DNA from: a virus
IMG/VR virus record: IMGVR_UViG_3300015371_000221
Span: 1-20,964 of that record
Length of the DNA stretch: 20,964 bases
Direction: 5' to 3' (one strand)
Shown piece by piece: positions 6,042-18,718 of the stretch. Made by a program: the position numbers and the translations under genes. How positions within the stretch are numbered: position 1 is the first letter of the stretch; each line of letters begins with the position of its first letter. The notes below the pieces were generated by a model. That model did not search any database. It was not told the origin of the DNA and saw nothing but the letters and a program-made list of their open reading frames with translations.

Positions 6042-6671
6042 ATGAGCGAGGGCGAGGAAGGGAAGGAAGGGCAAGAGAGGGATCCGGGGGAATTGGGGGA
6101 GCCTGAGGGGGAAAGGGGGGTTTCTCTCCATGTCACCGCGGCCGTTGACGTGCCTTCGTTGACGCCAGTTGCGACGGGTCCGGAGGCGGCGTCAGTGACG
6201 GTGCAAAGTCCTGAAAAGGTCCCGGGGCCGAAGCGCGTACGGCGTCTTCTGAAGGGAGTGAATCCGCGTCACCGGAAGGCGGCGCGGTTGCTTGCGCAGG
6301 GCAAGCGGACGGGCGAGGTCGCGGAGGTCGTTGGGTTCGGGCCGGCGTACCTTTCGCGCGTGGTGCAGACGCCGGAGTTTCGGGCGGAGCTTGACAGGAA
6401 TCTCCGGCAAATCCAGGCCCAAGCGCAGCGTCTCATCGCGTACGGTCTGACGCGGAGGCTTGAAGCGGTGGACCCTGAGGCGGCGGCGCGGCGTCTCACG
6501 CCTGGGGGCTTGCCGGAGCCTCCGATCTACACCGCGCGCGAGGTGGCGGACGATGCGCTGTCACCGGCGCTCATGCGTGCGGCGGGCGTCTCGGAGCGCG
6601 TGAGCTTCGACGTTGACACGATGATAGAGCGCGAACTGGCCCGGATCCGGGGCGAGCGGCCGGCCGAGTAG
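6042..6671 (+). CDS. terS: Probable terminase small subunit (TerS)
   Basis: I chose ATG 6042, which has AGGAAGGGCGAGCCG upstream; a TTG at 6003 would add 13 residues. The 209-aa product has an acidic, probably disordered N-terminus (1-60). A helix-turn-helix region at about 75-113 follows (HRKAARLLAQG, EVAEVVGFG, AYLSRVVQT, PEFRAEL). Next comes a helix suited to oligomerisation (118-145), then an acidic C-terminal tail. In phage small terminases, an HTH with this PEFRAEL ending binds the packaging site, and the central helices form the ring. The large subunit is 7.1 kb away, which is unusual. A transcription regulator with a similar HTH is the alternative. Confidence 0.65.
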   Translation: MSEGEEGKEGQERDPGELGEPEGERGVSLHVTAAVDVPSLTPVATGPEAASVTVQSPEKVPGPKRVRRLLKGVNPRHRKAARLLAQGKRTGEVAEVVGFGPAYLSRVVQTPEFRAELDRNLRQIQAQAQRLIAYGLTRRLEAVDPEAAARRLTPGGLPEPPIYTAREVADDALSPALMRAAGVSERVSFDVDTMIERELARIRGERPAE

Positions 6672-7174: not shown

Positions 7175-7185
7175 TGTCACTGACG
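7175..7185. promoter_or_regulatory. Operator-like palindrome, site 1 (10/11 match)
   Basis: TGTCACTGACG matches the six-copy palindrome CGTCA-C-TGACG with one mismatch at its first base. It lies between the divergent starts at 7145 (-) and 7224 (+), about 24 bp upstream of the extended -10 box of the C2H2 gene. Confidence 0.7.
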
Positions 7186-7205
7186 TTCCACGTGGCACTC
7201 ACCCA

Positions 7206-7214
7206 TGGTATACG
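7206..7214 (+). promoter_or_regulatory. Extended -10 promoter, probably leaderless
   Basis: TGGTATACG fits an extended -10 element (TGn plus TATACG at 7209-7214). The expected transcription start, about 7 nt downstream, falls within 3 nt of ATG 7224. No ribosome-binding site exists, so a leaderless message is likely. No good -35 box is seen; the palindrome lies in that area. Confidence 0.45.
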
Positions 7215-7223
7215 TCTGGTCAA

Positions 7224-7640
7224 ATGCCTGAAGTCTTCCGATGTACCGCGTGTGATTTCGAGGCGCCGTCCTTCGGCCGTCTGCACGCTCACGTTCGAGA
7301 GACGGGCCATGGATGGGAGGGCGATCCCGCGAAGGTCGCGGAGTTGCTTGCTGACCAGCACCGCCACCACTGGCAACGTCGTCGTGATGGCTGGTGGTGC
7401 CCTGACTGTACCGCGGTGTCGTACACGATGGAGCCGCCCGACGACGACCCGCCCTACCTCGGTGCCGGTCCGTTCGCTGGCTTCGTCTTCCTCCCCGGCA
7501 CGGACATCGCCGGCCCCGTCCACGAAGGCTCCCCGTGCATCGTCTGCCACATGCCCGTGGAGCCCGGCACGGGCGCGCAGGCGATGCCGCCGCTACCCGC
7601 GCTTCACTCCGCGTGCCTTCGGACGATCAAGCTCCCCTGA
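7224..7640 (+). CDS. C2H2 zinc-finger protein with two further zinc-site candidates
   Basis: The 138-residue product starts at ATG 7224 without a ribosome-binding site, directly behind an extended -10 box. Residues 7-29 form a classical C2H2 finger: C7, C10, H23 and H29, with the expected Phe and Leu core positions (FRCTACDFEA, then GRLHAHVRETGH). WWCPDC follows at 57-62. CIVCH (105-109) and HSAC (128-131) may form a third site. C2H2 fingers are uncommon in phages and usually bind DNA or protein. With an operator-like palindrome just upstream, an autoregulatory DNA-binding role is attractive but inferred. It ends in convergent overlap with the 65-aa gene. Confidence 0.75.
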   Translation: MPEVFRCTACDFEAPSFGRLHAHVRETGHGWEGDPAKVAELLADQHRHHWQRRRDGWWCPDCTAVSYTMEPPDDDPPYLGAGPFAGFVFLPGTDIAGPVHEGSPCIVCHMPVEPGTGAQAMPPLPALHSACLRTIKLP

Positions 7641-7824
7641 CGGGAGTCCCGTTCCATACGTCCTGGAACGCCGACCGGAGCGCGCGCAGGAGACGCCGGC
7701 ACCTTCGCAGATGCGCCTTCTGGCGACGGGGCCCGATCGGGTGCCACTTCCCGCTCTTCGTCCACACGTAGCCGGGCCGGAAGTAGTGGGCGAGCGCGCG
7801 GTCGATGAGTTCGTCGGCATTCAC
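7627..7824 (-). CDS. 65-aa basic protein, unknown function
   Basis: ATG 7822-7824 overlaps the previous stop as ATGA. The product begins MNADELIDRALAHYFRPGYVW and continues into a very basic helical half rich in Arg. It ends over the last 14 bases of the convergent C2H2 gene. An N-terminal helix followed by a basic segment is consistent with a small nucleic-acid-binding protein. No family is recognised. Confidence 0.7.
   Translation of the reverse strand: MNADELIDRALAHYFRPGYVWTKSGKWHPIGPRRQKAHLRRCRRLLRALRSAFQDVWNGTPVRGA
7640..7652. terminator. Palindrome at the convergent gene ends
   Basis: ACGGGA-G-TCCCGT is a perfect 13-bp palindrome at the stop of the C2H2 gene, inside the 3' end of the opposing gene. 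It could act as a bidirectional terminator. A 13-nt copy of its right half (GGAGTCCCGTTCC) recurs at 7155-7167. Confidence 0.4.
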
Positions 7825-8000
7825 GCCTGTCGCGCGACGAGGTCCGACTCAACGGTCCGCCACTGAGCGTCCCCGTCTTCCTGGAGTCTCCGCGCCATCT
7901 CCAGGAGCACGGAGCGCGGGGAGAGGGCAAGCTCCCACCGGCGCGCCGCGAACTCGCGCACGATCTCCGCGGCCGTGGGGGAAAGGTCCACTTCGCGCAT
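7821..8000 (-). CDS. 59-aa helical protein, unknown function
   Basis: GAGGAGGGACGA precedes ATG 7998-8000, a strong ribosome-binding site that fixes the start within a longer frame. The product is helical and acidic to neutral: MREVDLSPTAAEIVREFAAR, then LSPRSVLLEMARRL, then a tail. Two helices flank a possible turn at ELALSPRSV. This could be a minimal ribbon-helix-helix or HTH-like fold, but the pattern is not decisive. It is coupled to the 65-aa gene by ATGA. Confidence 0.7.
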   Translation of the reverse strand: MREVDLSPTAAEIVREFAARRWELALSPRSVLLEMARRLQEDGDAQWRTVESDLVARQA

Positions 8001-8059
8001 TCGTCCCTCCTCGTGTGGCACCCCGCCCCAGGCTCGCGCCGGGGCGGGGCGATCGTGGG

Positions 8060-8179
8060 CTACCAGGGCTCGATTTCGATTTGCCCGCTGTTCGGATCCG
8101 GCACCGGCGCGTCCTTCGCCCATGGGTCAATCTCGATCTGACCGGACAGCAACCGGATCACCGCCAAGAAGAACCTCAT
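8060..8179 (-). CDS. 39-aa peptide with a duplicated SGQIEI(D/E)PW motif
   Basis: GGAGGTAGAC precedes ATG 8177-8179, an excellent ribosome-binding site, and a promoter is predicted 38 nt upstream. The peptide has a short hydrophobic N-terminus (MRFFLAVIRLL). SGQIEIDPW (12-20) is repeated at the very C-terminus as SGQIEIEPW (31-39), separated by a Pro/Asp linker. The frame is too short for standard gene finders. A repeated short linear motif suggests a protein-binding peptide, possibly membrane-tethered. The function is unknown. Confidence 0.65.
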   Translation of the reverse strand: MRFFLAVIRLLSGQIEIDPWAKDAPVPDPNSGQIEIEPW

Positions 8180-8194
8180 GTCTACCTCCAGCGT

Positions 8195-8233
8195 GCAGCC
8201 AGTCTGCACGGCACGGAAGGTAGCCAGTCTGTA
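8195..8233. repeat. Two direct repeats, G(C/T)AGCCAGTCTG(C/T)A
   Basis: GCAGCCAGTCTGCA (8195-8208) and GTAGCCAGTCTGTA (8220-8233) differ at two positions and are spaced 25 nt start to start. They overlap the -10 box, spacer and start site of the promoter for the 39-aa peptide gene. Tandem operator half-sites are the likely meaning. Confidence 0.6.
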
Positions 8234-8246
8234 TGCAAAGCGTCAA
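8217..8246 (-). promoter_or_regulatory. Predicted leftward promoter of the 39-aa peptide gene
   Basis: On the minus strand, TTGACG (8241-8246, five of six) and TACCTT (8217-8222) are spaced by 18 bp. The start would fall near 8210, giving a 30-nt leader with a strong ribosome-binding site. Confidence 0.55.
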
Positions 8247-8277
8247 TGATACGCGTCATTTACAACGTAAAGGGAAT

Positions 8278-8565
8278 TCACTCATGGGGCACGACGATCG
8301 GCGGCGGGCTGACGTCGATCGTGAAGCACGTGAGCGGCCGGTTGGGCTTTCCGTCCGTGTCCCTGACGGGCACCGTCCGCGAGGTCTGAGTCCAGAAGGC
8401 CATCGCCGCCTCCGTGCTCTCGAACACGCGAGCCCGCGCGGGATCCGCCGTCAGCGAGAGCTTCCCGTACCCCGCGTCGTTCTCCTCGCTGTTGTCGTAG
8501 TCTTCCATCCACAGGTTGACGGGCTCGCCCCCTTGCTCGATGACGAACATCACGACGTCCGTCAC
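8278..8565 (-). CDS. 95-aa hypothetical protein with GTG start
   Basis: GTG 8563-8565 overlaps the previous stop as GTGA and has GGACGGAAG just upstream; an internal ATG at 8548-8550 is an alternative. The product begins VTDVVMFVIEQGGEPVNLW. It has an acidic Asp/Glu/Asn stretch, then strands ending in a Pro-rich tail (VSPPPIVVPHE). EQGGEPVNLW and ESTEAAMAFW suggest a small mixed fold. It has one cysteine. No family is recognised. Confidence 0.7.
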   Translation of the reverse strand: MTDVVMFVIEQGGEPVNLWMEDYDNSEENDAGYGKLSLTADPARARVFESTEAAMAFWTQTSRTVPVRDTDGKPNRPLTCFTIDVSPPPIVVPHE

Positions 8566-9359
8566 CGCTTCCGTCCCTTCACGTAGTCCTCCACTTCCCG
8601 CGCCGTCTTCTCCGTGACGACCAGCTTGGAGTTCGGGTCCTCGTCGTCTTCCAGGGCCCTCACGCCGCACTCGATACAGACCTTCACGGACGGCTCCGGG
8701 TTGTGCGGGCGCCAATGAATCGGTACCCCACACTTCGCGCAGACGCCGTACTTGTCGTCGTCGAACCTGCCCGGGTTCCCCCACTTGGTCGGCGAGCAGA
8801 TGACGAAGAGTTCGTCCGGTTTGTCGCCCATCACTCCCCCGAAATCTTCCGTGCGCAGGCGCGCAAGCTCGGGGCGGTCGGGATCGGGCAGCGCTGCGAT
8901 GGCCCGCGCCACCTTCCGTGCCTGTTCGCGCAAAATCTCGAGCCCGGCCTCCGCGGACACGTTCGATGTGGGCACGCCGGGAACGTCCGGCGGACCGAGC
9001 ATGGCGGCGAGTTCCCGCTCCAGTTGCCGCGCGATGTAGTCGCGGTACATACACCGCGGGTCCTCCGGCTTGCACTTCGTCGTACAGCCGCATCCGACTT
9101 CGCCGCAGGAGCCGCACACGGGGCACTCGTAGTCGTCGATGGTGTTTTCGTCGGCGGCGAGCGGCCGTTCTTGGTCGGAGCGGAACTCCGCCGCCGCCTT
9201 CGGAGTCGGTGCGGGAATGGGCCAGTACGCCTTTTCGTACTCCTCCGCGTCACACGCGAGCCGGTGGAGTTCGAAGCCTTCCGCCTTCGTGAGATCACCC
9301 TTGTCCATCAGGACGTTGATCCTTGCCATCGCGTCCTTGTACTGCTCGTCGGTCAGCAT
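8562..9359 (-). CDS. 265-aa protein: HigA-like N-terminal segment plus zinc clusters
   Basis: The start is secured by AGAGGAGGAATCCCCC before ATG. Residues 3-60 (DEQYKDAMARINVLMDKG; GFELHRLACDAEEYEKAY; WPIPAPTPKAAAEF) resemble the region before the HTH in HigA/HipB-type antitoxins, but no HTH follows. Residues 79-103 are unusually cysteine-rich (CPVCGSCG, then CGC, C and C). A second ribbon lies at 207-231 (CAKCG, CIECG), with a helical segment between. The protein probably binds several zinc ions. Database annotation as an antitoxin would be misleading, because the DNA-binding half is absent and no toxin partner is evident. The role is unknown. Confidence 0.75.
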   Translation of the reverse strand: MLTDEQYKDAMARINVLMDKGDLTKAEGFELHRLACDAEEYEKAYWPIPAPTPKAAAEFRSDQERPLAADENTIDDYECPVCGSCGEVGCGCTTKCKPEDPRCMYRDYIARQLERELAAMLGPPDVPGVPTSNVSAEAGLEILREQARKVARAIAALPDPDRPELARLRTEDFGGVMGDKPDELFVICSPTKWGNPGRFDDDKYGVCAKCGVPIHWRPHNPEPSVKVCIECGVRALEDDEDPNSKLVVTEKTAREVEDYVKGRKR

Positions 9360-9394
9360 GGGGGATTCCTCCTCTCTATGCGGATCGCAACCGG

Positions 9395-9424
9395 ATCATG
9401 CCGTGGCGGTGGTGACAGTGTCCA
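9395..9424 (-). promoter_or_regulatory. Predicted leftward promoter of the 265-aa gene
   Basis: On the minus strand, TGGACA (9419-9424, five of six) and CATGAT (9395-9400, four of six) are spaced by 18 bp. A start near 9388 would give a leader of about 29 nt containing the strong ribosome-binding site. Confidence 0.4.
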
Positions 9425-9456
9425 CGGGAATCGTGGCGGATAGCCGAGCCAGACGG

Positions 9457-9472
9457 AAAAAGGGGCCCCCCT
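9457..9472 (-). terminator. Terminator-like stem with T5 after the 90-aa gene
   Basis: In minus-strand order, AGGGG-GG-CCCCT is followed by TTTT, overlapping the stop codon of the 90-aa gene. The loop is only 2 nt and the stem short, but the T-run makes this the best rho-independent candidate in the window. Confidence 0.5.
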
Positions 9473-9744
9473 CAATCGCATGAGCATAGGTGGAGTGTCC
9501 TTCGCGTCCACCGGAGCGCGCGCCTCCACCACGGCCTCCGCCGCTCGACACACTCGCACTTCACGACGACGACGGTAGGCTCTGTGACGACCACGCGGGA
9601 GTCCGGTTGCGGCTCGCCGGGCACGTCCACGGGCGGAAGGTCGAAGGGGACGGGCGAGACAACGACAACCGGGGCCGGATGCTTCTTCTTGGCCGGCGCG
9701 GCTGGCGCGTCCAGGGCGAGCGCAAGCAGGAGGTCGATCAGCAT
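9472..9744 (-). CDS. 90-aa proline/valine-rich protein with hydrophobic N-terminus
   Basis: GGAGGCGCC precedes ATG 9742-9744. The N-terminus, MLIDLLLALALDAPAAPA, resembles a short signal peptide, although it lacks an initial positive charge. It is followed by KKK and a long Pro/Val-rich region. A basic, Trp-rich C-terminus follows, with a CECV and a final CSC motif. It may be exported or envelope-associated; a lysis-accessory role is possible but there is no lipobox. The gene is divergent from the next plus-strand genes, with the palindrome at 9774-9784 just upstream. No family is recognised. Confidence 0.65.
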   Translation of the reverse strand: MLIDLLLALALDAPAAPAKKKHPAPVVVVSPVPFDLPPVDVPGEPQPDSRVVVTEPTVVVVKCECVERRRPWWRRALRWTRRTLHLCSCD

Positions 9745-9773
9745 GGGCGCCTCCGTATTGACGCCGATGATAC

Positions 9774-9784
9774 CGTCACTGACG
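9774..9784. promoter_or_regulatory. Operator-like palindrome, site 2 (exact)
   Basis: This is an exact CGTCACTGACG, 30 bp upstream of the leftward ATG 9744. On the minus strand it directly precedes GGTATCAT, whose TATCAT is a good -10 box, so the palindrome would sit in the promoter spacer. It also lies upstream of the rightward genes from 9856. Confidence 0.75.
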
Positions 9785-9787
9785 TGC

Positions 9788-9802
9788 CCTCTCGACGAGA
9801 GG
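9788..9802. repeat. 15-bp perfect palindrome CCTCTCG-A-CGAGAGG
   Basis: This perfect inverted repeat lies 3 bp from operator site 2. On the plus strand T5 follows after a further 16 nt, too far for a classic terminator. A second protein-binding site in the divergent control region is as likely. Confidence 0.5.
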
Positions 9803-9855
9803 TTCTAGGAAGCCTTTTTGCCCTCGCCATCTTCCCCCCGCTACAGCGGTCCAGG

Positions 9856-10032
9856 GTGGCGTCTCCGAGAGCGTTCGGGATTCGCGGCCTCGTCGATGAC
9901 GGCACACACCGTTGCCTTCTGCACGGAATCTCGCGGACGACGTACCCGCAGTTGAAGGCCAACATCACGCGGACGCCGACTGTCTTCCTGAACGAGTCGC
10001 TCCTCCGCCGGTACATGGAGCTTGTCCGATGA
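9856..10032 (+). CDS. 58-aa hypothetical protein, start uncertain
   Basis: The 3' end is supported by ATGA overlap with the next gene and by G/C-ending codons. The best start is GTG 9856, giving VASPRAFGIRGLVDDG, then HGISRTTYPQLKANI and ending RRYMELVR. An upstream GTG at 9784 would place the start inside operator site 2 and translate the 15-bp palindrome with atypical codons, so it is less likely. No ribosome-binding site is strong. The product has one cysteine and mixed helix and strand. No family is recognised. Confidence 0.45.
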   Translation: MASPRAFGIRGLVDDGTHRCLLHGISRTTYPQLKANITRTPTVFLNESLLRRYMELVR

Positions 10033-10217
10033 CGTGCCCGCACGAGCGGAAAGAGCGGTGCCTGTTCTTCGGTGGCGCCTGGCGTTTCGTCTGCCTCGCG
10101 TGTGGCGCGGTCTTCGATGCCGAGCCCTACGTCCCCGTCTGGCGAACCCTCGTGGCGCTGTCGGAGAGCGTCCAGGCGCCTCACCGTGGGCCGATCGGCG
10201 GCGGGCCCGTCTCATAG
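10029..10217 (+). CDS. 62-aa zinc-ribbon protein
   Basis: ATG 10029 overlaps the upstream stop (ATGA). The N-terminal half carries CPHE (3-6), C11 and CLACG (22-26), a compact zinc site with aromatic residues between (LFFGGAWRFV). The C-terminal half, YVPVWRTLVALSESV, is helical and ends in a Gly-rich tail. This arrangement is like many small phage ribbons. A stem-loop follows immediately, so the two-gene unit probably ends here. Confidence 0.7.
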   Translation: MTCPHERKERCLFFGGAWRFVCLACGAVFDAEPYVPVWRTLVALSESVQAPHRGPIGGGPVS

Positions 10218-10218
10218 A

Positions 10219-10239
10219 GCGTCCGGCTCGTCCGGACGC
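10219..10239 (+). terminator. 8-bp perfect hairpin after the 62-aa gene
   Basis: GCGTCCGG and CCGGACGC flank the loop CTCGT, starting 2 nt after the TAG stop. There is no strong T-run, but the position supports a terminator. Confidence 0.55.
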
Positions 10240-10249
10240 GTCCTACGGC

Positions 10250-10260
10250 CGTCACTGACG
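10250..10260. promoter_or_regulatory. Operator-like palindrome, site 3 (exact)
   Basis: This is an exact CGTCACTGACG between the hairpin at 10219-10239 and the promoter of the 131-aa gene, 55 bp upstream of its ATG. It is followed by TTCGGGAAACTCTCC, a 15-mer that also occurs inverted at 5927-5941 between the divergent promoters. Confidence 0.75.
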
Positions 10261-10301
10261 TTCGGGAAACTCTCCACTGGAACCGGCCGGCCCGGCTGTC
10301 G

Positions 10302-10307
10302 TATGCT
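10302..10307 (+). promoter_or_regulatory. -10-like box directly before the 131-aa gene
   Basis: TATGCT (four of six) ends 8 nt before ATG 10316, so the expected start is at or next to the A of the ATG. No ribosome-binding site is present. This suggests a leaderless transcript, like that of the C2H2 gene. The -35 region is weak. Confidence 0.4.
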
Positions 10308-10315
10308 TATTGCAT

Positions 10316-10711
10316 ATGCAACACCTCATGTCGGCTTTCTACCACGGCCCCGCCGATCTTCTCTGGCGCGATCATCCAAGCTGGCAGGGCCCGCGGTCAC
10401 TGACCAAGGCGGAGGCCGATGCCGAGCGTGCGGGGAAGGCGCGGCCGAAGGCGCTCATGCACGTCTGTGCCTTCTCCATCTTCGCGGAGGGCCCGACGCC
10501 GTCGAACCAGGACCCCATTGATCCGCGCTCGCGGCCGGCTCGCGACGATTACTACGGCGAGCTACACGCCGCGGGCGCCGTTCGCCTCATGGGCGTGGCC
10601 GAGTGTCGCTTCTGCGAAGAGACGTTCGGCACCTGGCTCGCGAACCACTACCCGGAGCCGCGGAAGGGCCCGCGGTACCAGGCCATCGTCGCGCCCGCGG
10701 TGTTCCACTGA
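10316..10711 (+). CDS. 131-aa hypothetical protein with a CxxC
   Basis: ATG 10316 is preferred because a -10 box lies directly upstream and no ribosome-binding site exists for it or for the ATG at 10328. The product begins MQHLMSAFYHGPADLLWRDH. It has an Ala/Lys-rich helix (31-47), a central strand region (MHVCAFSIFAEG) and CRFCEETFGTWL near 97-108. The sole CxxC is unlikely to form a full zinc site unless it pairs in a dimer. Its TGA overlaps the next ATG by one base. No family is recognised. Confidence 0.7.
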   Translation: MQHLMSAFYHGPADLLWRDHPSWQGPRSLTKAEADAERAGKARPKALMHVCAFSIFAEGPTPSNQDPIDPRSRPARDDYYGELHAAGAVRLMGVAECRFCEETFGTWLANHYPEPRKGPRYQAIVAPAVFH

Positions 10712-10911
10712 TGGACCGGAAGGAGCCGAAGCAACTGGCGCTCACCTTCGCGACGTCCGTCGTGATCCCGGCGCTCGACGCTGCGCAGCAGAAGCAACTG
10801 CGCGAGGCGATCGACGGCCCGCGCCCGTCCGACGTCGCGGAGTGGGTCCGTACCCTGCCTCCCGGCGGGACGATCCACTACGTCCCCGGCAAGCCGAAGG
10901 CGGCGAACTAG
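10711..10911 (+). CDS. 66-aa hypothetical protein
   Basis: ATG 10711 is coupled to the upstream stop (TGATG). The product, MDRKEPKQLALTFATSVVI and onward, has helices around AAQQKQLREAI and PSDVAEWVRTL, then ends with IHYVPGKPKAAN. It has no cysteine. Its TAG shares bases with the stop codon of the opposing phosphoesterase gene inside a 14-bp palindrome. No family is recognised. Confidence 0.7.
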   Translation: MDRKEPKQLALTFATSVVIPALDAAQQKQLREAIDGPRPSDVAEWVRTLPPGGTIHYVPGKPKAAN

Positions 10912-10917
10912 AGTTCG
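10904..10917. terminator. 14-bp inverted repeat spanning two convergent stop codons
   Basis: CGAACT-AG-AGTTCG is an inverted repeat in which the plus-strand TAG (10909-10911) and minus-strand TAG (10908-10910) are embedded. It is too short and loop-poor to be a strong terminator, but its placement is exact. Confidence 0.4.
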
Positions 10918-11603
10918 ACGACGATCGGCGGGCGCGTCGCCTCGTACTTGTCGTCGCACGTGACCGCGTTCACGAAGATGGTGCCCTCGCCCTCGATCAT
11001 CCCCGGGTGAGAGTGGATGTGCCCGAAGACGTGAAGCCGCGGGCGAATCCTCTTCACGGCCTCCAGTAGCTCCGCGTCCCCCACGTGGCGGACCATGCGC
11101 GTGTGAAGGTCGAGGCCCGTCGAGTCCAGGATCCCGCGCGGGGGCCCGTGCGTGACCAAGATGTCGATGCCGTCCGGTAGCCTCGCCCAATGCTCCGCGC
11201 TCGTCCGCGGCCCGCTGCCGCCCAGGAGAAAGGGCCGGTCACCCTCCGGGCGCCGGTCCTCAAGCTGGAAGGCCCAATCGTAGAAGCGGGGCGTCCAGGG
11301 GGAGCCGAAGATGCGGAATCCCGCGATGGTCTTGATGTCGTCCTGAAGGTACGTGATCCCGTCGTAGCCGTCGCCGAGCGCCAGGCGCGCGAGCGCGAGG
11401 TCTTTCTGGAACAGCTTGTCGTGATTGCCGGCGATCACCACCTTGTGCTTGTGTGGCAGTTCCGCCAGTTGCTCACCCGCGGTCTTGATCTCGCGGAACG
11501 TACCGTTGCACGTGAGGTCGCCCGCGTGAATCAGGATGTCTCCATCCGGGATCGGTGGGAGCTTCACCGGCACGTGCGTGTCGGAGATACAGACGATTCT
11601 CAT
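10908..11603 (-). CDS. Calcineurin-like metallophosphoesterase, MPPED-like
   Basis: The 231-residue product has the complete metallophosphoesterase signature: SDTH (D8, H10), HAGD (D29), GNHD (N60, H61), THGPP (H152) and GHIHSH (H195, H197). GSPWTP and DWAFQ at 100-113 are characteristic of the MPPED1/MPPED2-like branch, whose members hydrolyse phosphodiesters such as cyclic nucleotides in vitro. No signal peptide is present, so it is cytoplasmic. It overlaps the upstream gene by ATGA and is the last gene of a five-gene leftward operon starting at 12933. Possible roles are nucleotide second-messenger removal or nucleic-acid end processing; neither is shown. Confidence 0.9.
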   Translation of the reverse strand: MRIVCISDTHVPVKLPPIPDGDILIHAGDLTCNGTFREIKTAGEQLAELPHKHKVVIAGNHDKLFQKDLALARLALGDGYDGITYLQDDIKTIAGFRIFGSPWTPRFYDWAFQLEDRRPEGDRPFLLGGSGPRTSAEHWARLPDGIDILVTHGPPRGILDSTGLDLHTRMVRHVGDAELLEAVKRIRPRLHVFGHIHSHPGMIEGEGTIFVNAVTCDDKYEATRPPIVVEL

Positions 11604-11830
11604 TTCGCCTTACGTGCCTTCTTCCAGTCCTGGATGGCTTCGCGGGCCCACTGGCATTCGGCCTGATGTTCCGCGCCCGGGTACTGACTCTTACCACACC
11701 AACACGGGCGCAGGATGGTGCCTTCAAGGCGGACGTCCATGAGCGCGCGCACGAGCGCGTCGCCGAGTTCCGTCTGCTCGTCGTAGACCTTCAGGAGTTC
11801 GTGGACGGCGCGGCCGAGTCGTTTCATCAT
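11600..11830 (-). CDS. 76-aa protein with CxC...H...C motif
   Basis: Three start codons lie in a row (GTG 11833, ATG 11830, ATG 11827). I chose ATG 11830, which gives a TGATG overlap with the previous gene. The N-terminal half is helical (GRAVHELLKVYDEQTELG). The C-terminal half has CWCGK (43-47), H55 and C59, a compact zinc-site candidate, then a basic tail KKARKAK. The gene is coupled to the phosphoesterase by ATGA. No family is recognised. Confidence 0.7.
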   Translation of the reverse strand: MMKRLGRAVHELLKVYDEQTELGDALVRALMDVRLEGTILRPCWCGKSQYPGAEHQAECQWAREAIQDWKKARKAK

Positions 11831-12069
11831 CACCCCATCGTCTTTCTCACGGCGTCCATGAGGTCTTCGTACCGCCAGAGGTCGCTTTCGCCGGGCGCGC
11901 GGAGGCGGGGCGGCGACCGGACGAGCCGGACCCGCTCTCCGCTCGCGGCCTCGAACGAGACTTTCCAGACGGTCTTGTCCTCCTCCGCGTACTTGAAGGC
12001 TTGAGCGACGGTCCGAAAGTACCGGAGGCCGGTTTCCTCGGAGCGAACCTGGACGCGTTCTTCACTCAT
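11830..12069 (-). CDS. 79-aa hypothetical protein
   Basis: ATG 12067-12069 lies inside the end of the upstream gene (8-nt overlap), and its stop abuts the next start. The product has an acidic N-terminus (MSEERVQVRSEETG). Aromatic helical segments (RYFRTVAQAFKYAEEDKTVW) and a strand pair around VSFEAASGERVRLV follow. It ends with LWRYEDLMDAVRKTMG. It has no cysteine. No family is recognised, but codon use fits the neighbours. Confidence 0.7.
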   Translation of the reverse strand: MSEERVQVRSEETGLRYFRTVAQAFKYAEEDKTVWKVSFEAASGERVRLVRSPPRLRAPGESDLWRYEDLMDAVRKTMG

Positions 12070-12310
12070 CGACGAGGTCCATTCGCTCGTACGCGTGACC
12101 GCCGCGGTGTTCGGCCGGGAGCGGGCAGCGGAAGAACGCCCCGCAGGCGGGCCCGCCCCTGTCGTCCTGGCCGTAGCTGATGCGGCCTTCCGCCCACGCG
12201 TGCCGGATGGAGATGGCGACGGGATCGACGAGCGACGCGTGCTCCACGTAGTCGCTCTCGACGAGCCCGAGCGCTTTGAGCGCCAGTAGCCGCGCGTCGT
12301 GGATCGTCAC
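12062..12310 (-). CDS. 82-aa protein with C-x5-C-x5-H-x3-H motif
   Basis: GTG 12308-12310 overlaps the stop of the 208-aa gene (GTGA); the longer frame upstream is read-through. The N-terminal 40 residues are helical (VTIHDARLLALKALGL, then VAISIRHAWAEG). The C-terminal part contains C56, C62, H68 and H72 in CGAFFRCPLPAEHRGGH. I recall this layout from small proteins of actinobacterial mobile elements, where it probably binds zinc. The function is unknown. Confidence 0.7.
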   Translation of the reverse strand: MTIHDARLLALKALGLVESDYVEHASLVDPVAISIRHAWAEGRISYGQDDRGGPACGAFFRCPLPAEHRGGHAYERMDLVDE

Positions 12311-12933
12311 TTCTTCCTCCGCGCCTTCGCCTTGCGCGTCTTCTCGCCGGACGTCCACGCGTCCACCACTTGCGAAAGGGTCGTGGGCTGCGCCTCGCCG
12401 GGCTTGGTCGCGGGCGTCTGTTCGCCGATGTGGTGGGCGAAGAACGCGTCACCCTGATTGAAGCGCAGCGGCCGGTCCGGAAAGATGTCTTCGAACGTCT
12501 TCGGGATCTCGTCCGCGCGCGCGGCGTCGTGAATGCGCATGCGGAACGAGAACAGCGAGTCCTCGCGCACGCCCTCGAACGGCACTTCCTTCGCCGTGTC
12601 GTTGCCCTTCAGGCGTTCCCGCTGCCCGTAGCCGTACACGCCGGCCGCGAACATCGCCGTGAAGGGTTTCTCCGCCGAGCCGAATCCGCTCCAGACGATC
12701 AGGTACACGCCCTGTTGCGGGCCGCGGAAGGCGTAGATTTCCACGTCCTTGTAGCGGAGGCTTCCCGAGTTCACGGTGAGGAGCGGGAAGACGCCATCGC
12801 CCTCCGCCTTCTCGAACACCTGGATCCAGTTCTTGCGGACGCTGACGACGACACCCTGGGGCGAGACGAAGACACCGTGGGTCGGCTCCTTCTTCTCGTT
12901 CCAGGCGATCGTGTCCCAATTCGATAGCGCCAT
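12307..12933 (-). CDS. 208-aa conserved-looking phage hypothetical protein
   Basis: GGAGGTGCC precedes ATG 12931-12933, fixing the start of this first gene of a leftward operon. The N-terminal 100 residues alternate short strands: NWDTIAWNEKKEP, THGVFVSPQGVVVSVRKNW, then LRYKDVEIYAFRGPQQG and VYLIVWSG. This suggests a beta-sandwich or barrel. A helical, charged middle and a Lys/Arg-rich tail (KARRKK) follow. The NWDT opening and RGPQxGVYLIVWSG phrase recall unnamed metagenomic phage proteins, but I cannot name a family. It lacks a signal peptide. Confidence 0.75.
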   Translation of the reverse strand: MALSNWDTIAWNEKKEPTHGVFVSPQGVVVSVRKNWIQVFEKAEGDGVFPLLTVNSGSLRYKDVEIYAFRGPQQGVYLIVWSGFGSAEKPFTAMFAAGVYGYGQRERLKGNDTAKEVPFEGVREDSLFSFRMRIHDAARADEIPKTFEDIFPDRPLRFNQGDAFFAHHIGEQTPATKPGEAQPTTLSQVVDAWTSGEKTRKAKARRKK

Positions 12934-13070
12934 GGCACCTCCGGCGGTAGTCCCGGCGGGCCGGTAACGGCGACCCCGCCGCTATCGGCGCGTGATTCTC
13001 AATTCGCCCCGCGCCGCCCCTGATGGCCGACCCGCCGGAATGGGCCCAGCTTACACCTACGTTCACGGAT

Positions 13071-13081
13071 AGTCACTGACG
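13071..13081. promoter_or_regulatory. Operator-like palindrome, site 4 (10/11 match)
   Basis: AGTCACTGACG differs from the consensus at the first base. It lies 138 bp upstream of the leftward ATG 12933 and directly left of a TTGACA box at 13091-13096. Site 5 lies 55 bp away, so this pair could support looping or cooperative binding. Confidence 0.7.
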
Positions 13082-13125
13082 TTTAGCGTCTTGACAGTGG
13101 GCGCAAGCTCGCTCTGTGGGTGCTT

Positions 13126-13136
13126 CGTCACTGACG
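13126..13136. promoter_or_regulatory. Operator-like palindrome, site 5 (exact)
   Basis: This is an exact CGTCACTGACG, centre to centre 55 bp from site 4, flanking the same TTGACA box. It stands at the left border of the hairpin-rich region upstream of the terminase operon. Confidence 0.75.
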
Positions 13137-13644
13137 CTTCGGGCGCGTCGCGCGTTGTACCTGCTCTGCCGTTTCTCCGGGCACCGTCTTCATCTCTGCC
13201 GCTGGTGCGAACCCATCCGGCATTCGAGCGGCCGGATGTACCGCTTCCGGAGATGGGGCGCCTAGCGGTTCATCCCTTGGAAGGGCCCTTACCGCAGTTC
13301 GCGCGGACGCGGGGCGGCGCCGCCCGGTCCCTTCAACAAGGACGAACCGTTGGCGAGAGGACAGCAGGACCGCACCGGGAGGGTGTCCCGGCACATGGCG
13401 ACGACGTGAAACCCACTCGTCGCGTCGCCGCGCGATCTCGTAGCCCTGACCGGCTGGTAAGGCCCCTTCGAGGGGGTGAGCGCCCAGTTCTGGTACGGCT
13501 GGGGGGAATGTCGAAGCCAAGCCGATGCCCGAGAGCGCCGCGAACAAGGTGGGATACCAGAGGGCTCATAACCCAACCTGGCCCGTGTGTCCTGTGGTGG
13601 TCCACGGTGCGGTCCCGAACGGTCGGCATGGGCATGGACCTACC

Positions 13645-13794
13645 GTGGAGCTAGCCCCTCCGCCGCTCATCCTCTCGGACCGTTGGGACCAGGACGCGGG
13701 GCGGCCTCCGCTCTGTCCTCAGTGCGAGAAGCCGCTCACGTCGTTTCGCAAGGGCCGTTGGATCTGTCGGAAGTGCGGCTACGTGTGGCCCTGA
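13645..13794 (+). CDS. 49-aa zinc-ribbon protein upstream of TerL
   Basis: The C-terminal half is a clear four-cysteine ribbon: LCPQCEKPL and WICRKCGYVW. The start is uncertain. GTG 13645 gives 49 residues with a Pro-rich N-terminus, whereas ATG 13525 would add 40 residues of low quality spanning a hairpin. No start has a good ribosome-binding site. The stop lies inside the TerL gene, 7 nt past its first codon, so the two are translationally coupled. Small zinc-binding proteins next to terminases can be nuclease cofactors, such as HNH proteins, but no HNH motif is visible here. Confidence 0.6.
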   Translation: MELAPPPLILSDRWDQDAGRPPLCPQCEKPLTSFRKGRWICRKCGYVWP

Positions 13795-15455
13795 GTGATC
13801 CCCTTGTTGACTCCGACTGGCGGAGTCTTCCCGACCAGGCCAAGCTCGCGCTGCTCGCCAAGCTGCGCAAGGTCGCGCCGCTCCCCGGCGCCGCCGCCAT
13901 CCTCCGCCGTGATGATCCCGTCGAGTTCTTCCGCGATGTCCTCGGGTGGGAACCGAGCGAGGCCGCGCTGCGCCACGGCTACACGGATCCCATCACGCCG
14001 GACCAGCGGCTCGTCGTCGAGTCCGTGCGCGACAACCGGCGCACCGCGGTACCCGCCGGCCACGGCGTAGGCAAGACGTTCCTCGTCGCCGGCACGGCGC
14101 TGTGGTTCCTGCTCTCCCAGGAAGACTCCATCGTTCTCACCACAGCTCCCACGTGGAATCAGGTGGAGTCGATCATGTGGCGCGAGATCCATCGCGCCCA
14201 CCGCCGCGCCAAGCTGCCGCTCCCCGGCACGCTGAATCAGACCGAGCTACGGCTGAACGAACGATGGTTCGCGCTCGGCCTGTCCACGGACGACTCGTCA
14301 CGCTTCCAGGGGTACCACGGCCGGCGCATGCTCGTGATCCTCGACGAAGCCACGGGCGTACGTCCGGAGATTTGGGAGGCGATCGAGGGCGTGACCGTCC
14401 GGCCGGACGATCGCATCATCGCGATCGGGAACCCCACGGATCCCGTCTCGGACTTCAAGGCCGCGTGCGACTCCGGCCTGTGGAACGTGATCCGGCTCGA
14501 CTGCCGCCAGCATCCCAACGTCGTCCAGAACGATCCGGAGATCATCCCGGGCGCGGTCACGCGGGAGTGGGTGCAGGAACGCGAGATCGAATACGGCGGC
14601 GAGAACTCTCCGCTCTTCCAGGCGCGCGTCGCCGGCATCTGGCCGGATCAGTCCTCGAACAGCCTCATCTCGCTCGCGTGGGTGGCGCAGGCGCAGACGC
14701 GCCGCGTTCCGGATCCGCCGGACCGCCGCGGGGTCGCGCTCGGGCTCGACGTCGCGGGCACGGGCGATGATCTGACCGTGCTGTCGAAGGTGGAAAACTC
14801 GAGGTGGGACGTCGCGCATTGGCACACGGGCAAGGACGTGATGGAAGGTGTCGGCGCCGTGCGGCGCGTGGCGATCGAGACGGGGGCCCGCATCCTCGTC
14901 GTGGATGACACGGGCATCGGCCAGGGGCTTTCCGCGCGCATCCGGCAGATGCAGCGCGAGGGGCAGTTCCCGACCGGGTGCCGGATCGTCGCCGTCAACT
15001 TCGGCGCGAGCGCGTGGCGCGAGGACTTGTACCGGCACACGAAGGACGAGATGTACTGGTACGCGCGGGAGCGGCTCCGGCTCCAGGAATTGACGCTACC
15101 CACGGACCGCGAGCTACTCCGATTGGGCCTCCCCCGGGGCTCGTCCGTGGTATCTCAACTGACCGCGCCGATTTACATGCAAACAGCAACGGGCAAGATC
15201 AACGTCCTGGACAAGCGCGACGGCAGGGAGGACACGAAGACGCTCCCGACGAAGAGTCCGGACTTCGCGCACTCGTGGATCCTGGCGTGTTGGGCCTGGC
15301 AGTTCCTCCGGTCCGACAAGCGGGAGGAGCCCGCGAAGACGACGCAGGAGATCCGCTCCAGGGAGTTCCACGGTGACGTCGCCAAGCGGCTCAAGGAACT
15401 GGCGAAGTTCGGCGCCCGGCGGGAGCGGCGCCTCAAGAAAGCGAGGATGTGGTGA
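13785..15455 (+). CDS. terL: Terminase large subunit (TerL), packaging ATPase-nuclease
   Basis: The start is GTG 13785, with GGAAG upstream and a 10-nt overlap with the zinc-ribbon gene; upstream codons in this frame are read-through. The product has 556 residues. The ATPase domain has Walker A AGHGVGKT (91-98), Walker B MLVILDEAT (182-190) and IGNPT (214-218), a motif-III-like coupling segment. The RNase H-like nuclease domain shows LGLDVAGTGDDLTVL (D322), ILVVDD (D374, D375) and SPDFAHSW (D493), the acidic metal-binding residues. The C-terminus is very basic. TerL powers DNA translocation into the procapsid through the portal and cuts the concatemer. All key residues are present; this is the firmest call in the window. 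Confidence 0.97.
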   Translation: MALSDPLVDSDWRSLPDQAKLALLAKLRKVAPLPGAAAILRRDDPVEFFRDVLGWEPSEAALRHGYTDPITPDQRLVVESVRDNRRTAVPAGHGVGKTFLVAGTALWFLLSQEDSIVLTTAPTWNQVESIMWREIHRAHRRAKLPLPGTLNQTELRLNERWFALGLSTDDSSRFQGYHGRRMLVILDEATGVRPEIWEAIEGVTVRPDDRIIAIGNPTDPVSDFKAACDSGLWNVIRLDCRQHPNVVQNDPEIIPGAVTREWVQEREIEYGGENSPLFQARVAGIWPDQSSNSLISLAWVAQAQTRRVPDPPDRRGVALGLDVAGTGDDLTVLSKVENSRWDVAHWHTGKDVMEGVGAVRRVAIETGARILVVDDTGIGQGLSARIRQMQREGQFPTGCRIVAVNFGASAWREDLYRHTKDEMYWYARERLRLQELTLPTDRELLRLGLPRGSSVVSQLTAPIYMQTATGKINVLDKRDGREDTKTLPTKSPDFAHSWILACWAWQFLRSDKREEPAKTTQEIRSREFHGDVAKRLKELAKFGARRERRLKKARMW

Positions 15456-15457
15456 GG

Positions 15458-15556
15458 CTAGCTCGGCTGGGAGATCAGGAACGCGAACAGCAGGAACAGC
15501 AGGATCGCGTAAAAGCCCCAGGGCTGCGTGGACGCCCAACGGCGTACATTGCTCAT
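15458..15556 (-). CDS. 32-aa single-pass membrane peptide
   Basis: ATG 15554-15556 starts a peptide with a basic N-terminus (MSNVRRWASTQPWG). A single hydrophobic span follows (FYAILLFLLFAFLI) before a TAG two bases from the TerL stop on the opposite strand. A start five codons earlier (15571) is possible. TTGACT (15586-15591) and a weak CACATT box (15563-15568), spaced by 17 bp, would place the transcript start at the ATG, again leaderless. Holin-like or other membrane roles are possible; the sequence alone cannot tell. The frame is short, so confidence is limited. Confidence 0.5.
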   Translation of the reverse strand: MSNVRRWASTQPWGFYAILLFLLFAFLISQPS

Positions 15557-15565
15557 CCATCCAAT

Positions 15566-15697
15566 GTGCATGTTGCGCGGGGAAAAGTCAACGATTGCCT
15601 GTGTAACTGCCACGATTCCGCCTACAGGAAGGTGTTCCGCGTCCGTGAGCACCGGACCAACGTCGGCTGTCAGCGGGCCCTCGTGCGCGAGGCGTGA
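15566..15697 (+). CDS. 43-aa cysteine-containing small protein, start uncertain
   Basis: The 3' end is supported by TGATG overlap with the next gene. The segment NDCLCNCHDS followed by VREHRTNVGCQ gives C-x-C-x-CH and a later C, a possible zinc knuckle. GTG 15566 is the most economical start; a GTG at 15449 would extend the frame through sequence that looks non-coding and opposes the membrane peptide gene. No ribosome-binding site is clear. The tail is basic. No family is recognised. Confidence 0.45.
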   Translation: MHVARGKVNDCLCNCHDSAYRKVFRVREHRTNVGCQRALVREA

Positions 15698-16026
15698 TGG
15701 ATCGGTCGCTGGAGCACGCGCGCATGCTGGTGACGCTCCAGAACTGGACGACGGACGCCCGTATCCTTGCCGCCGCTCTCCGGGAGGGGCTCGCCAGCGA
15801 AGCCGGCCTCCTGGCCCTCGGCCACGCGGCGGAGCATATGGACGAGCGGATGGTGGCGGCGGCGCTGTACCTGTTCATGAAAGACAAGAAGGTTCGCGGC
15901 GAGGTCGTGAAGCACGTCCAGGGGGAGCTTGGTCCGTCAACGACGTACCGTCACGCGGCTAAGTCGGTGCGTCAATTGAGGGACTATATTCTGCTTGAAT
16001 ATTTTCGGACGGAGGGGATACAGTAA
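15697..16026 (+). CDS. 109-aa helical hypothetical protein
   Basis: ATG 15697 overlaps the previous stop (TGATG) and has GAGG 5 nt upstream; a GTG one codon earlier is an alternative. The product is nearly all helix: LEHARMLVTLQNW, ARILAAALREGLASEAG, HMDERMVAAALYLFMKDKKV and RQLRDYILLEYF. It has no cysteine or membrane span, although ALYLF is hydrophobic. The helical repeat-like layout suggests a bundle. The next gene starts 25 nt on, after operator site 6. No family is recognised. Confidence 0.75.
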   Translation: MDRSLEHARMLVTLQNWTTDARILAAALREGLASEAGLLALGHAAEHMDERMVAAALYLFMKDKKVRGEVVKHVQGELGPSTTYRHAAKSVRQLRDYILLEYFRTEGIQ

Positions 16027-16027
16027 G

Positions 16028-16038
16028 CGTCACTGACG
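16028..16038. promoter_or_regulatory. Operator-like palindrome, site 6 (exact)
   Basis: This is an exact CGTCACTGACG filling the 24-bp gap between a stop codon and the next gene, directly before the ribosome-binding site ACGGAGG (16039-16045). GATACAGT just upstream could be a -10 box. Binding here would block transcription starts or elongation at this internal boundary. Confidence 0.75.
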
Positions 16039-16050
16039 ACGGAGGCCCCC

Positions 16051-16572
16051 ATGGCGACCAAGCGCGACCTGGCCCGGTTCGCGGCGGAGATGGAAAAGGC
16101 CCGGCCCTCGTGGGCCCGCGGCGAGTGGGACAACGAGCCGGACCGGGTCGAGTGGGCGGACGAGAAGACGGGCCTCCCGTGCCTCGTCGTTCGAGGGCCC
16201 CTCGGCGCCCTTTGCGGGTACGTCGGTGTTCCGAAGGGGCACCCTCTGTACCGCGTCAAGAGGGAAGCGCTGCCCAACCTGGACGTCCACGGCGGGATCA
16301 ACTATGCGAAGCGGGGTGTCTTCGTGATCTGCCACGCGAAGCGGAACGATCCGCGGTGGTGGCTCGGTTTCGACTGCGGGCACATGCAGGACTTGGTTCC
16401 GGGGTTCGAGCCCATCATGAAGCGCGTGGACGCGGAGATGGAGGCGAAGGGGATTGGGCCGGCCAGGTTCGGTCCGGATCTCGCCGGCATGTTCGGGCGC
16501 CACTACTGCTCCGTGGACTTCGTCAAGGCGGAGTGTCGGCAGCTAGCCGCGCAGCTTGCCGCGATGAAGTGA
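16051..16572 (+). CDS. 173-aa conserved phage hypothetical (HGG-x2-YA family)
   Basis: GGAGGCCCCC precedes the ATG. The product carries a pattern I recognise from many phages and actinobacterial elements: WDNEPDRVEW, TGLPCLVVRGPLGALCGYVG, LDVHGGINYA (77-86), ICHAK, WWLGFDCGHMQDL and a tail AECRQLAAQL. The function is not known. Conserved His, Cys and acidic residues hint at a metal site or enzyme. It opens a tightly overlapping set of six genes that runs to 18353. The family is firm; the role is unknown. Confidence 0.85.
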   Translation: MATKRDLARFAAEMEKARPSWARGEWDNEPDRVEWADEKTGLPCLVVRGPLGALCGYVGVPKGHPLYRVKREALPNLDVHGGINYAKRGVFVICHAKRNDPRWWLGFDCGHMQDLVPGFEPIMKRVDAEMEAKGIGPARFGPDLAGMFGRHYCSVDFVKAECRQLAAQLAAMK

Positions 16573-17885: not shown

Positions 17886-18353
17886 ATGCGTAGCCTGACG
17901 ATCGTCTCTGGCGGGCAGACGGGCGCGGACCGCGGCGCGCTCGACGCGGCGATTGAGCTTGGCCTTTCCGTGGACGGCTGGTGCCCGCGCGGCCGTCGCG
18001 CGGAGGACGGGCCCGTGCCGGCGGAGTACCCGATGCGGGAGACGCCGTCGAATCGGTACGCGGAGCGGACGACGTGGAACGTGCGCGACTCGGACGCGAC
18101 GCTGATCCTTCACGCCGGGAAGACGGGTCCGGGCACGGCGCTGACGGTCCGCCTGGCCGGCCGGCTCTCGCGCGCGTACCTCGTCGTGGACGTGCGCGAG
18201 CCCGAAGCGAAGAGGACCGTGAAGGCGTGGATCGAGGGGCAGAAGATCGGCCGGCTCAACGTCGCCGGCCCGCGGGAGAGCGGCTCGCCCGGGTTGCAGG
18301 ATGCGGTCAAGCGGTTCCTCGTGAGCGTCCTCGGCGGGATCGTAACCCGGTAG
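17886..18353 (+). CDS. SLOG-type putative molybdenum carrier (MoCo_carrier) protein
   Basis: ATG 17886 lies one base after the previous stop. Near the N-terminus, IVSGGQTGADRGALDAAI (6-23) is the nucleotide-binding loop of the putative molybdenum carrier family (MoCo_carrier, Rossmann-like SLOG superfamily). GWCPRGRRAEDG and YPMRETPSNRY, then RTTWNVRDSDATLIL and GPGTALTV, are the following conserved segments. The 155-residue length is typical. Despite the family name, SLOG proteins are more often tied to nucleotide ligands, including in conflict systems. The true role in phages is unknown. A nucleotide-sensing or processing role beside the phosphoesterase is an inference. Confidence 0.88.
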   Translation: MRSLTIVSGGQTGADRGALDAAIELGLSVDGWCPRGRRAEDGPVPAEYPMRETPSNRYAERTTWNVRDSDATLILHAGKTGPGTALTVRLAGRLSRAYLVVDVREPEAKRTVKAWIEGQKIGRLNVAGPRESGSPGLQDAVKRFLVSVLGGIVTR

Positions 18354-18409: not shown

Positions 18410-18718
18410 ATGGCCGAGTGTCCAGGCTGCGCAGCGCTAGATCGGGAAATTATCCTTCTTCGGGAGGAACTCACCACCGTCCGGACTGAGCGGCGGGAGC
18501 TTCTCGACCGGATCCTCGCGCTCGCGAATCCCGCGGTCTACCGGACCATGAATCCACAACTGACCGCGTCGAGTCCTGGGAGCGCGCAGAACGCTCGTCA
18601 CTCGCCGCCCCGCCCCAACTTCCCCGGGTTCACTCCGAACCGGCGGCCTCAGTCTCCGCAGTCCTCGCAGCCGGCGCCGGCTGCGCTCGCCTTGCCGCAG
18701 GCGGACGGTAGCGGGTAG
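18410..18718 (+). CDS. 102-aa coiled-coil protein with Pro-rich tail, before the portal
   Basis: ATG 18410 follows the -10 box by 10 nt. Residues 4-7 are CPGC, and 9-40 form a short coiled-coil-like helix (LDREIILLREELTTVRTERRELLDRIL). From about 50 on the protein is Ser/Pro/Asn/Gln-rich and likely disordered. Its TAG overlaps the portal GTG by one base, so the two are translationally coupled. A structural or assembly helper is plausible from position, but there is no family match. Confidence 0.75.
   Translation: MAECPGCAALDREIILLREELTTVRTERRELLDRILALANPAVYRTMNPQLTASSPGSAQNARHSPPRPNFPGFTPNRRPQSPQSSQPAPAALALPQADGSG

Follow-up and report, generated by a model that had tools for sequence, protein, structure and literature searches.

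The stretch of DNA analysed here (hereafter the window) is the whole of an IMG/VR record of 20,964 bp, a G+C-rich fragment of an unclassified bacterial virus that is a tailed phage, as shown by the terminase large subunit encoded at 13791-15455. The best matches of this terminase are ~28-34% identical and are spread across phages of many hosts, and the product of 18718-20964 resembles, at ~22% identity, the portal proteins of phages from Arthrobacter and Microbacterium. Close relatives of the phage were found neither in the phage collection nor in IMG/VR or the GTDB representatives, and searches for syntenic relatives via the terminase, the portal, the phrog_2164 protein and a helix-turn-helix (HTH)-like ORF returned distant single-gene matches at most. 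Relatives that are 25-47% identical to the phrog_2164 family gene (ORF 16051-16572; function unknown) occur in Bacillus phage G as well as in 31 IMG/VR contigs, genomes that are otherwise unrelated, which makes it a travelling phage gene. A strong Pfam match to cpYpsA (circularly permuted YpsA, SLOG superfamily; E 6.5e-57) was obtained at 17886-18353. Intergenic DNA makes up 11.8% of the record, with gene starts that are ORF-based and on which every intergenic call rests.

A short palindrome recurs in this sequence. The shortest unit common to all copies is the 9-bp GTCACTGAC, which is present eight times in the window (at 6191, where the plus strand reads GTCAGTGAC, and at 7176, 9775, 10251, 10396, 13072, 13127 and 16029), in the following settings:

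6190-6200, minus strand: exact copy CGTCACTGACG (CGTCAGTGACG on the plus strand, with G at the centre), inside the likely ORF 6042-6671
7175-7185, plus strand: TGTCACTGACG, intergenic, 38 bp upstream of the ATG at 7224 of a C2H2-type zinc-finger gene (ORF 7224-7640)
9774-9784, plus strand: CGTCACTGACG, between the divergent ORFs 9472-9744 (minus) and 9784-10032 (plus)
10250-10260, plus strand: CGTCACTGACG, intergenic, with the ATG at 10316 beginning 55 bp on
10396-10404, plus strand: 9-bp core GTCACTGAC, in the context GGTCACTGACC, inside ORF 10316-10711
12934-13524, no strand: longest intergenic region (591 bp), flanked by the leftward ORF 12307-12933 on one side and the terminase transcription unit on the other, with two sites
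13071-13081, plus strand: AGTCACTGACG and then TTTAGCG, within the divergent non-coding region of 591 bp
13126-13136, plus strand: CGTCACTGACG, in the same 591-bp region, 55 bp from the 13071 site
13791-15455, plus strand: terminase large subunit (phrog_2, E 1.8e-36)
16028-16038, plus strand: CGTCACTGACG, in a 24-bp gap that separates two ORFs of the same direction; GGAGG, the ribosome-binding site for ORF 16051-16572, follows after 2 bp

An earlier note on this DNA had listed six of these copies, and its coordinates, sequences and mismatch counts are all exact, but the exact palindrome at 6190-6200 and the 9-bp core at 10396-10404 had been overlooked. Because of these two, its statements that all copies are intergenic and that their orientation is fixed by a central C apply to the listed six and not to the family, in which two copies (6190 and 10396) lie inside ORFs and one (6190) has G on the plus strand. 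The leftward operon (up to 5856) is free of copies, as had been stated. The centre base is C or G in every copy and never A or T. Beyond ~11 bp the copies have little in common and no long flanks alike, apart from a continuation, GTCACTGACGTT, that is found in three of them (7176, 10251 and 13072). They are scattered singly through the window, with neither a tandem array nor an iteron array. At 8242-8263, in the gap at 8019-8277, GTCAATGAT and GTCATTTAC nearly match the palindrome core at a distance of 13 bp from each other, and are possibly degenerate sites.

The excess beyond chance that had been claimed for the motif was borne out by our counts. Under an order-3 Markov model 0.11 occurrences of GTCACTGAC were expected against the eight observed (tail ~4e-13), which places it at rank 1 of all 9-mers, and for CGTCACTGACG shuffles gave 0.02 where the window has five. 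By itself, finding a gapped 5+5 palindrome of some kind five times is not rare in G+C-rich sequence like the window, and what is significant is the particular motif family (0.08 expected) together with the k-mer rank. Placement is uneven as well: six of the eight family copies fall in intergenic DNA, which is a fraction of 0.118 of the record (P 6e-5). Seven of the eight point one way, which is not significant (two-sided sign P ~0.07), and since the site is a dyad the call of orientation rests on one base; the reversed copy lies in a rightward ORF.

The motif is also far denser here than elsewhere. Exact CGTCASTGACG reaches 238 sites per Mb in the window, compared with ~0.5-4 per Mb in ten bacterial genomes (3-14 occurrences in 3.3-16 Mb), a background that is, if anything, overstated because these genomes were picked for holding a close motif pair, some of the copies being local repeats. 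Likewise, the 9-bp core GTCASTGAC occurs eight times in 21 kb (~380 per Mb) as against six times in ~664 kb of comparison phage records (14 other records, mostly of G+C 0.59-0.66). In Gordonia malaquae and an Actinomycetes MAG, CGTCASTGACG forms clusters of 3-5 copies (one copy being the 9-bp core only), often flanked by TTCGTCASTGACGAA, that look like intergenic repeats. Where paired motifs turned up in other contigs, they were mostly Val-Thr-Asp repeats in long ORFs, with spacing in multiples of 3; such a coding origin was rejected for the window, where the sites are single and lie in gaps. None of the papers returned by a literature search for the exact motif strings dealt with phages or bacterial operators, judging from title and abstract, and in a motif-pair scan of IMG/VR and GTDB two actinophage-like contigs were the only other phage sequences in which this dispersed palindrome came up.

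These contigs, IMGVR_UViG_3300043313_001192 (177 kb), which was reached by scanning for the palindrome beside a ribosome-binding site, and _001352 (114 kb), each carry ~20 copies of ACTGACGTTTACGCAG. The copies are intergenic, upstream of TATGCT-like promoters, nearly all in one orientation and mostly ~0.6-1.5 kb apart. Weak matches to phages of Rhodococcus and Mycobacterium were obtained for part of _001192, and the terminase of the window has no match in either contig. Like the window sites, the ACTGACGTTTACGCAG element is dispersed, intergenic and upstream of genes, and in about a quarter of its copies the left arm is completed (AACGTCACTGACGTTTACGCAG) so that they extend to a palindrome, AACGTCACTGACGTT, that shares the window core and includes the same 11-mer. 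Unlike the window dyad, it has an asymmetric 16-bp core with a variable left half, is present in some 20 copies, and has an invariant right arm, TGACGTTTACGCAG, that is absent from the window (the best match is GTCACTGACGTTTAGC at 13072, with 2 mismatches; all others have at least 3). The common core of 9-12 bp is suggestive of homology between the two kinds of site and is not proof of it, and it may be a coincidence because the search itself selected for the core. There is a slim chance that CGTCA-S-TGACG, with an optional GTT extension, represents one specificity used by unrelated G+C-rich phages via a shared regulator (perhaps a repressor family that is mobile, or else a conserved factor of the host), the same dispersed operators then allowing unrelated phages to sense or silence each other.

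Around the window sites, promoter-like features are irregularly placed. The 9774 site lies in the 17-bp spacer of a TCGAGA...TATCAT sigma-70-like match on the minus strand (9795-9767), TATACG is found 23 bp downstream of the 7175 site and TATGCT 41 bp downstream of the 10250 site. A consensus promoter search of the window yielded few promoters. The description of the sites as lying beside -10 boxes, ribosome-binding sites or divergent starts is fair, as 9774, 16028, 7175 and 10250 illustrate, but it fits the sites unevenly: the distance from site to start codon ranges from 12 to ~390 bp, and that to a -10 box is not constant either. Such variable distances speak more for operators than for an element with a fixed place in a promoter or in translation. 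At 10310-10321, right after the TATGCT box, the likely start codon of ORF 10316-10711 lies within a perfect 12-bp palindrome, TTGCATATGCAA. The 591-bp gap is probably non-coding because its ORFs have a third-position G+C of 0.64-0.65, compared with 0.75-0.93 in the other measured ORFs. A structured RNA or tRNA in this gap, hinted at by a GGGCTCATAACCC stretch, was considered and rejected, since no tRNA and no Rfam match above the gathering score were found. Nearby, GAGGGCTCATAACCCAAC at 13561-13580 looks like an initiator-tRNA anticodon arm, but no tRNA is predicted there.

We consider it probable, though well short of certain, that the sites are dyad operators through which one dimeric DNA-binding protein controls several transcription units of the phage together. 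The reading of the sites as operators of a single dispersed regulon, already proposed in the earlier note, is the one best supported by the dyad, the excess and the promoter-sized gaps, although the regulator itself was not found. Its direct support is statistical and positional, and it is from this that we infer binding, the sign of regulation and the protein. A dimer would bind the half-site CGTCA on either side of a single central C/G, and its targets would be the accessory genes, the terminase unit and a structural-region gene, each with sites in promoter-sized upstream gaps. Since bacterial genomes seldom contain the motif, the regulator would be phage-encoded, and it may mostly repress, with sites lying over the spacer of the leftward promoter at 9774 and over the start region of gene 16051. 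Its likely role would be to silence accessory and late genes in a coordinated way, either in a lysogen or in early infection. No repressor family was detected among the scanned proteins of the window, the record being a fragment; the HTH-like ORF 6042-6671, taken as a repressor candidate, gave a poor single-sequence model (pLDDT 51) and no match in a fold search. The top rank among 9-mers, the excess over shuffles, the intergenic bias, the C/G centre, the promoter match around 9774, the high density relative to other phages and bacteria and the precedent of SPBRE/MrpR in SPbeta speak for operators, whereas the two in-ORF copies, the variable distances, the small yield of the promoter search, the failure to find a repressor gene and a length of 11 bp, which is short for a helix-turn-helix dimer, speak against. 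The in-ORF copies could be auxiliary sites near upstream operators, that at 10396 being 145 bp from 10250. The copy at 6190 may alternatively lie in the control region of its own gene, if the ORF starts later than annotated; an alternative start, GTG 6201, would put the site at the gene start, and a good ribosome-binding site precedes 6042.

Other explanations account for parts of the same evidence. The sites could instead mark a promoter class of a phage activator or alternative sigma factor that switches a gene set on, which we regard as unlikely yet deserving of some weight: at 7175, 10250 and 16028 they lie on the coding side upstream of ORFs, the GTCACTGACGTT continuation is common to three copies, and the comparable element in the two actinophage-like contigs precedes clear TATGCT-like promoters. 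Start-codon distances of 12 to ~390 bp are at odds with such an element, as is the 16028 site, which abuts a ribosome-binding site, and the near-perfect dyad is more in keeping with a dimeric regulator than with a sigma factor. The dyad and the dispersed layout also recall the KorB operators of RK2, and two of the sites lie 55 bp apart in the largest non-coding region, so that centromere or replication sites for a ParB/KorB-like protein or a phage-plasmid initiator, with regulation secondary, have to be weighed; with no par or rep gene among the tested window proteins, no iteron array and a preference for gene starts, we give this reading a low probability.

Repeat debris, in the form of a REP- or MITE-like recombinogenic palindrome copied into gaps or of gene-cassette junction remnants with no bound regulator, would be consistent with the tandem or clustered occurrence of the same 11-mer as intergenic repeats in some bacterial genomes, and the genes adjoining the sites do resemble accessory cassettes. 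Copied repeats would, however, share long flanks, whereas nothing past ~11 bp is common to the window copies, which are single and dispersed rather than tandem, and we give this origin a similarly low probability. That the sites belong to a host regulator, either exploited by the phage or silencing it, is harder still to credit: the GTCA-N-TGAC core equals the core of one site of the Deinococcus RDRM, TTATGTCATTGACATAA, a host stress regulon motif (PMC1978522), but the window contains nothing within 3 mismatches of this full 17-bp RDRM, and in the ten bacterial genomes the motif is rare.

If one protein does bind all the sites as operators, the adjoining genes would form a regulon and thereby a testable control network for an uncharacterised phage lineage. 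Such a regulon would help to place the unknown accessory genes and to tell whether the phage is temperate, and dispersed-operator systems, of which few are known in phages, would gain a palindromic example.

The sequence of the motif is new, and its arrangement is familiar. On plasmid RK2 the KorB operators are dispersed odd-length palindromes with a C/G centre, located at promoters and elsewhere, KorB being a ParB-family protein; the window differs in the sequence of its motif and in having no ParB-family gene among the proteins scanned. The repressor of phiC31 binds conserved inverted repeats that are dispersed at actinophage early promoters, and these are palindromic repressor sites like those proposed here, with a different sequence. 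The RDRM/DdrO operator of Deinococcus is likewise a palindrome, with TTAT/ATAA flanks, that serves a host regulon and has in one site the core GTCA-T-TGAC (PMC1978522); those flanks are found at none of the window sites, and the likeness stops at the core. A resemblance to L5-type stoperators had also been suggested, and it extends to the dispersal of copies in short intergenic gaps but not to the site itself. The L5-type sites of cluster A mycobacteriophages are 13-bp, asymmetric, monomer-bound and transcription-oriented, and stop elongation (PMC9283540, PMC6550527), whereas the window sites are dyads with one copy reversed, and the L5 consensus GGTGGMTGTCAAG has no match in the window at 0-1 mismatch, the best (2 mismatches) lying in an unrelated place and none at the sites. 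In layout, the closest proven analogue is that of the low-G+C Bacillus phage SPbeta, in which about ten 15-bp SPBRE elements lie in intergenic promoter regions under the master repressor MrpR, and in which the element was first noticed as a repeated intergenic motif and later proven to be a repressor site (PMC10516654). MrpR is known for SPbeta, and the window motif differs from SPBRE in its sequence and in belonging to a G+C-rich phage; like SPBRE, it is short, over-represented and present at several places between genes or at promoters within a single phage.
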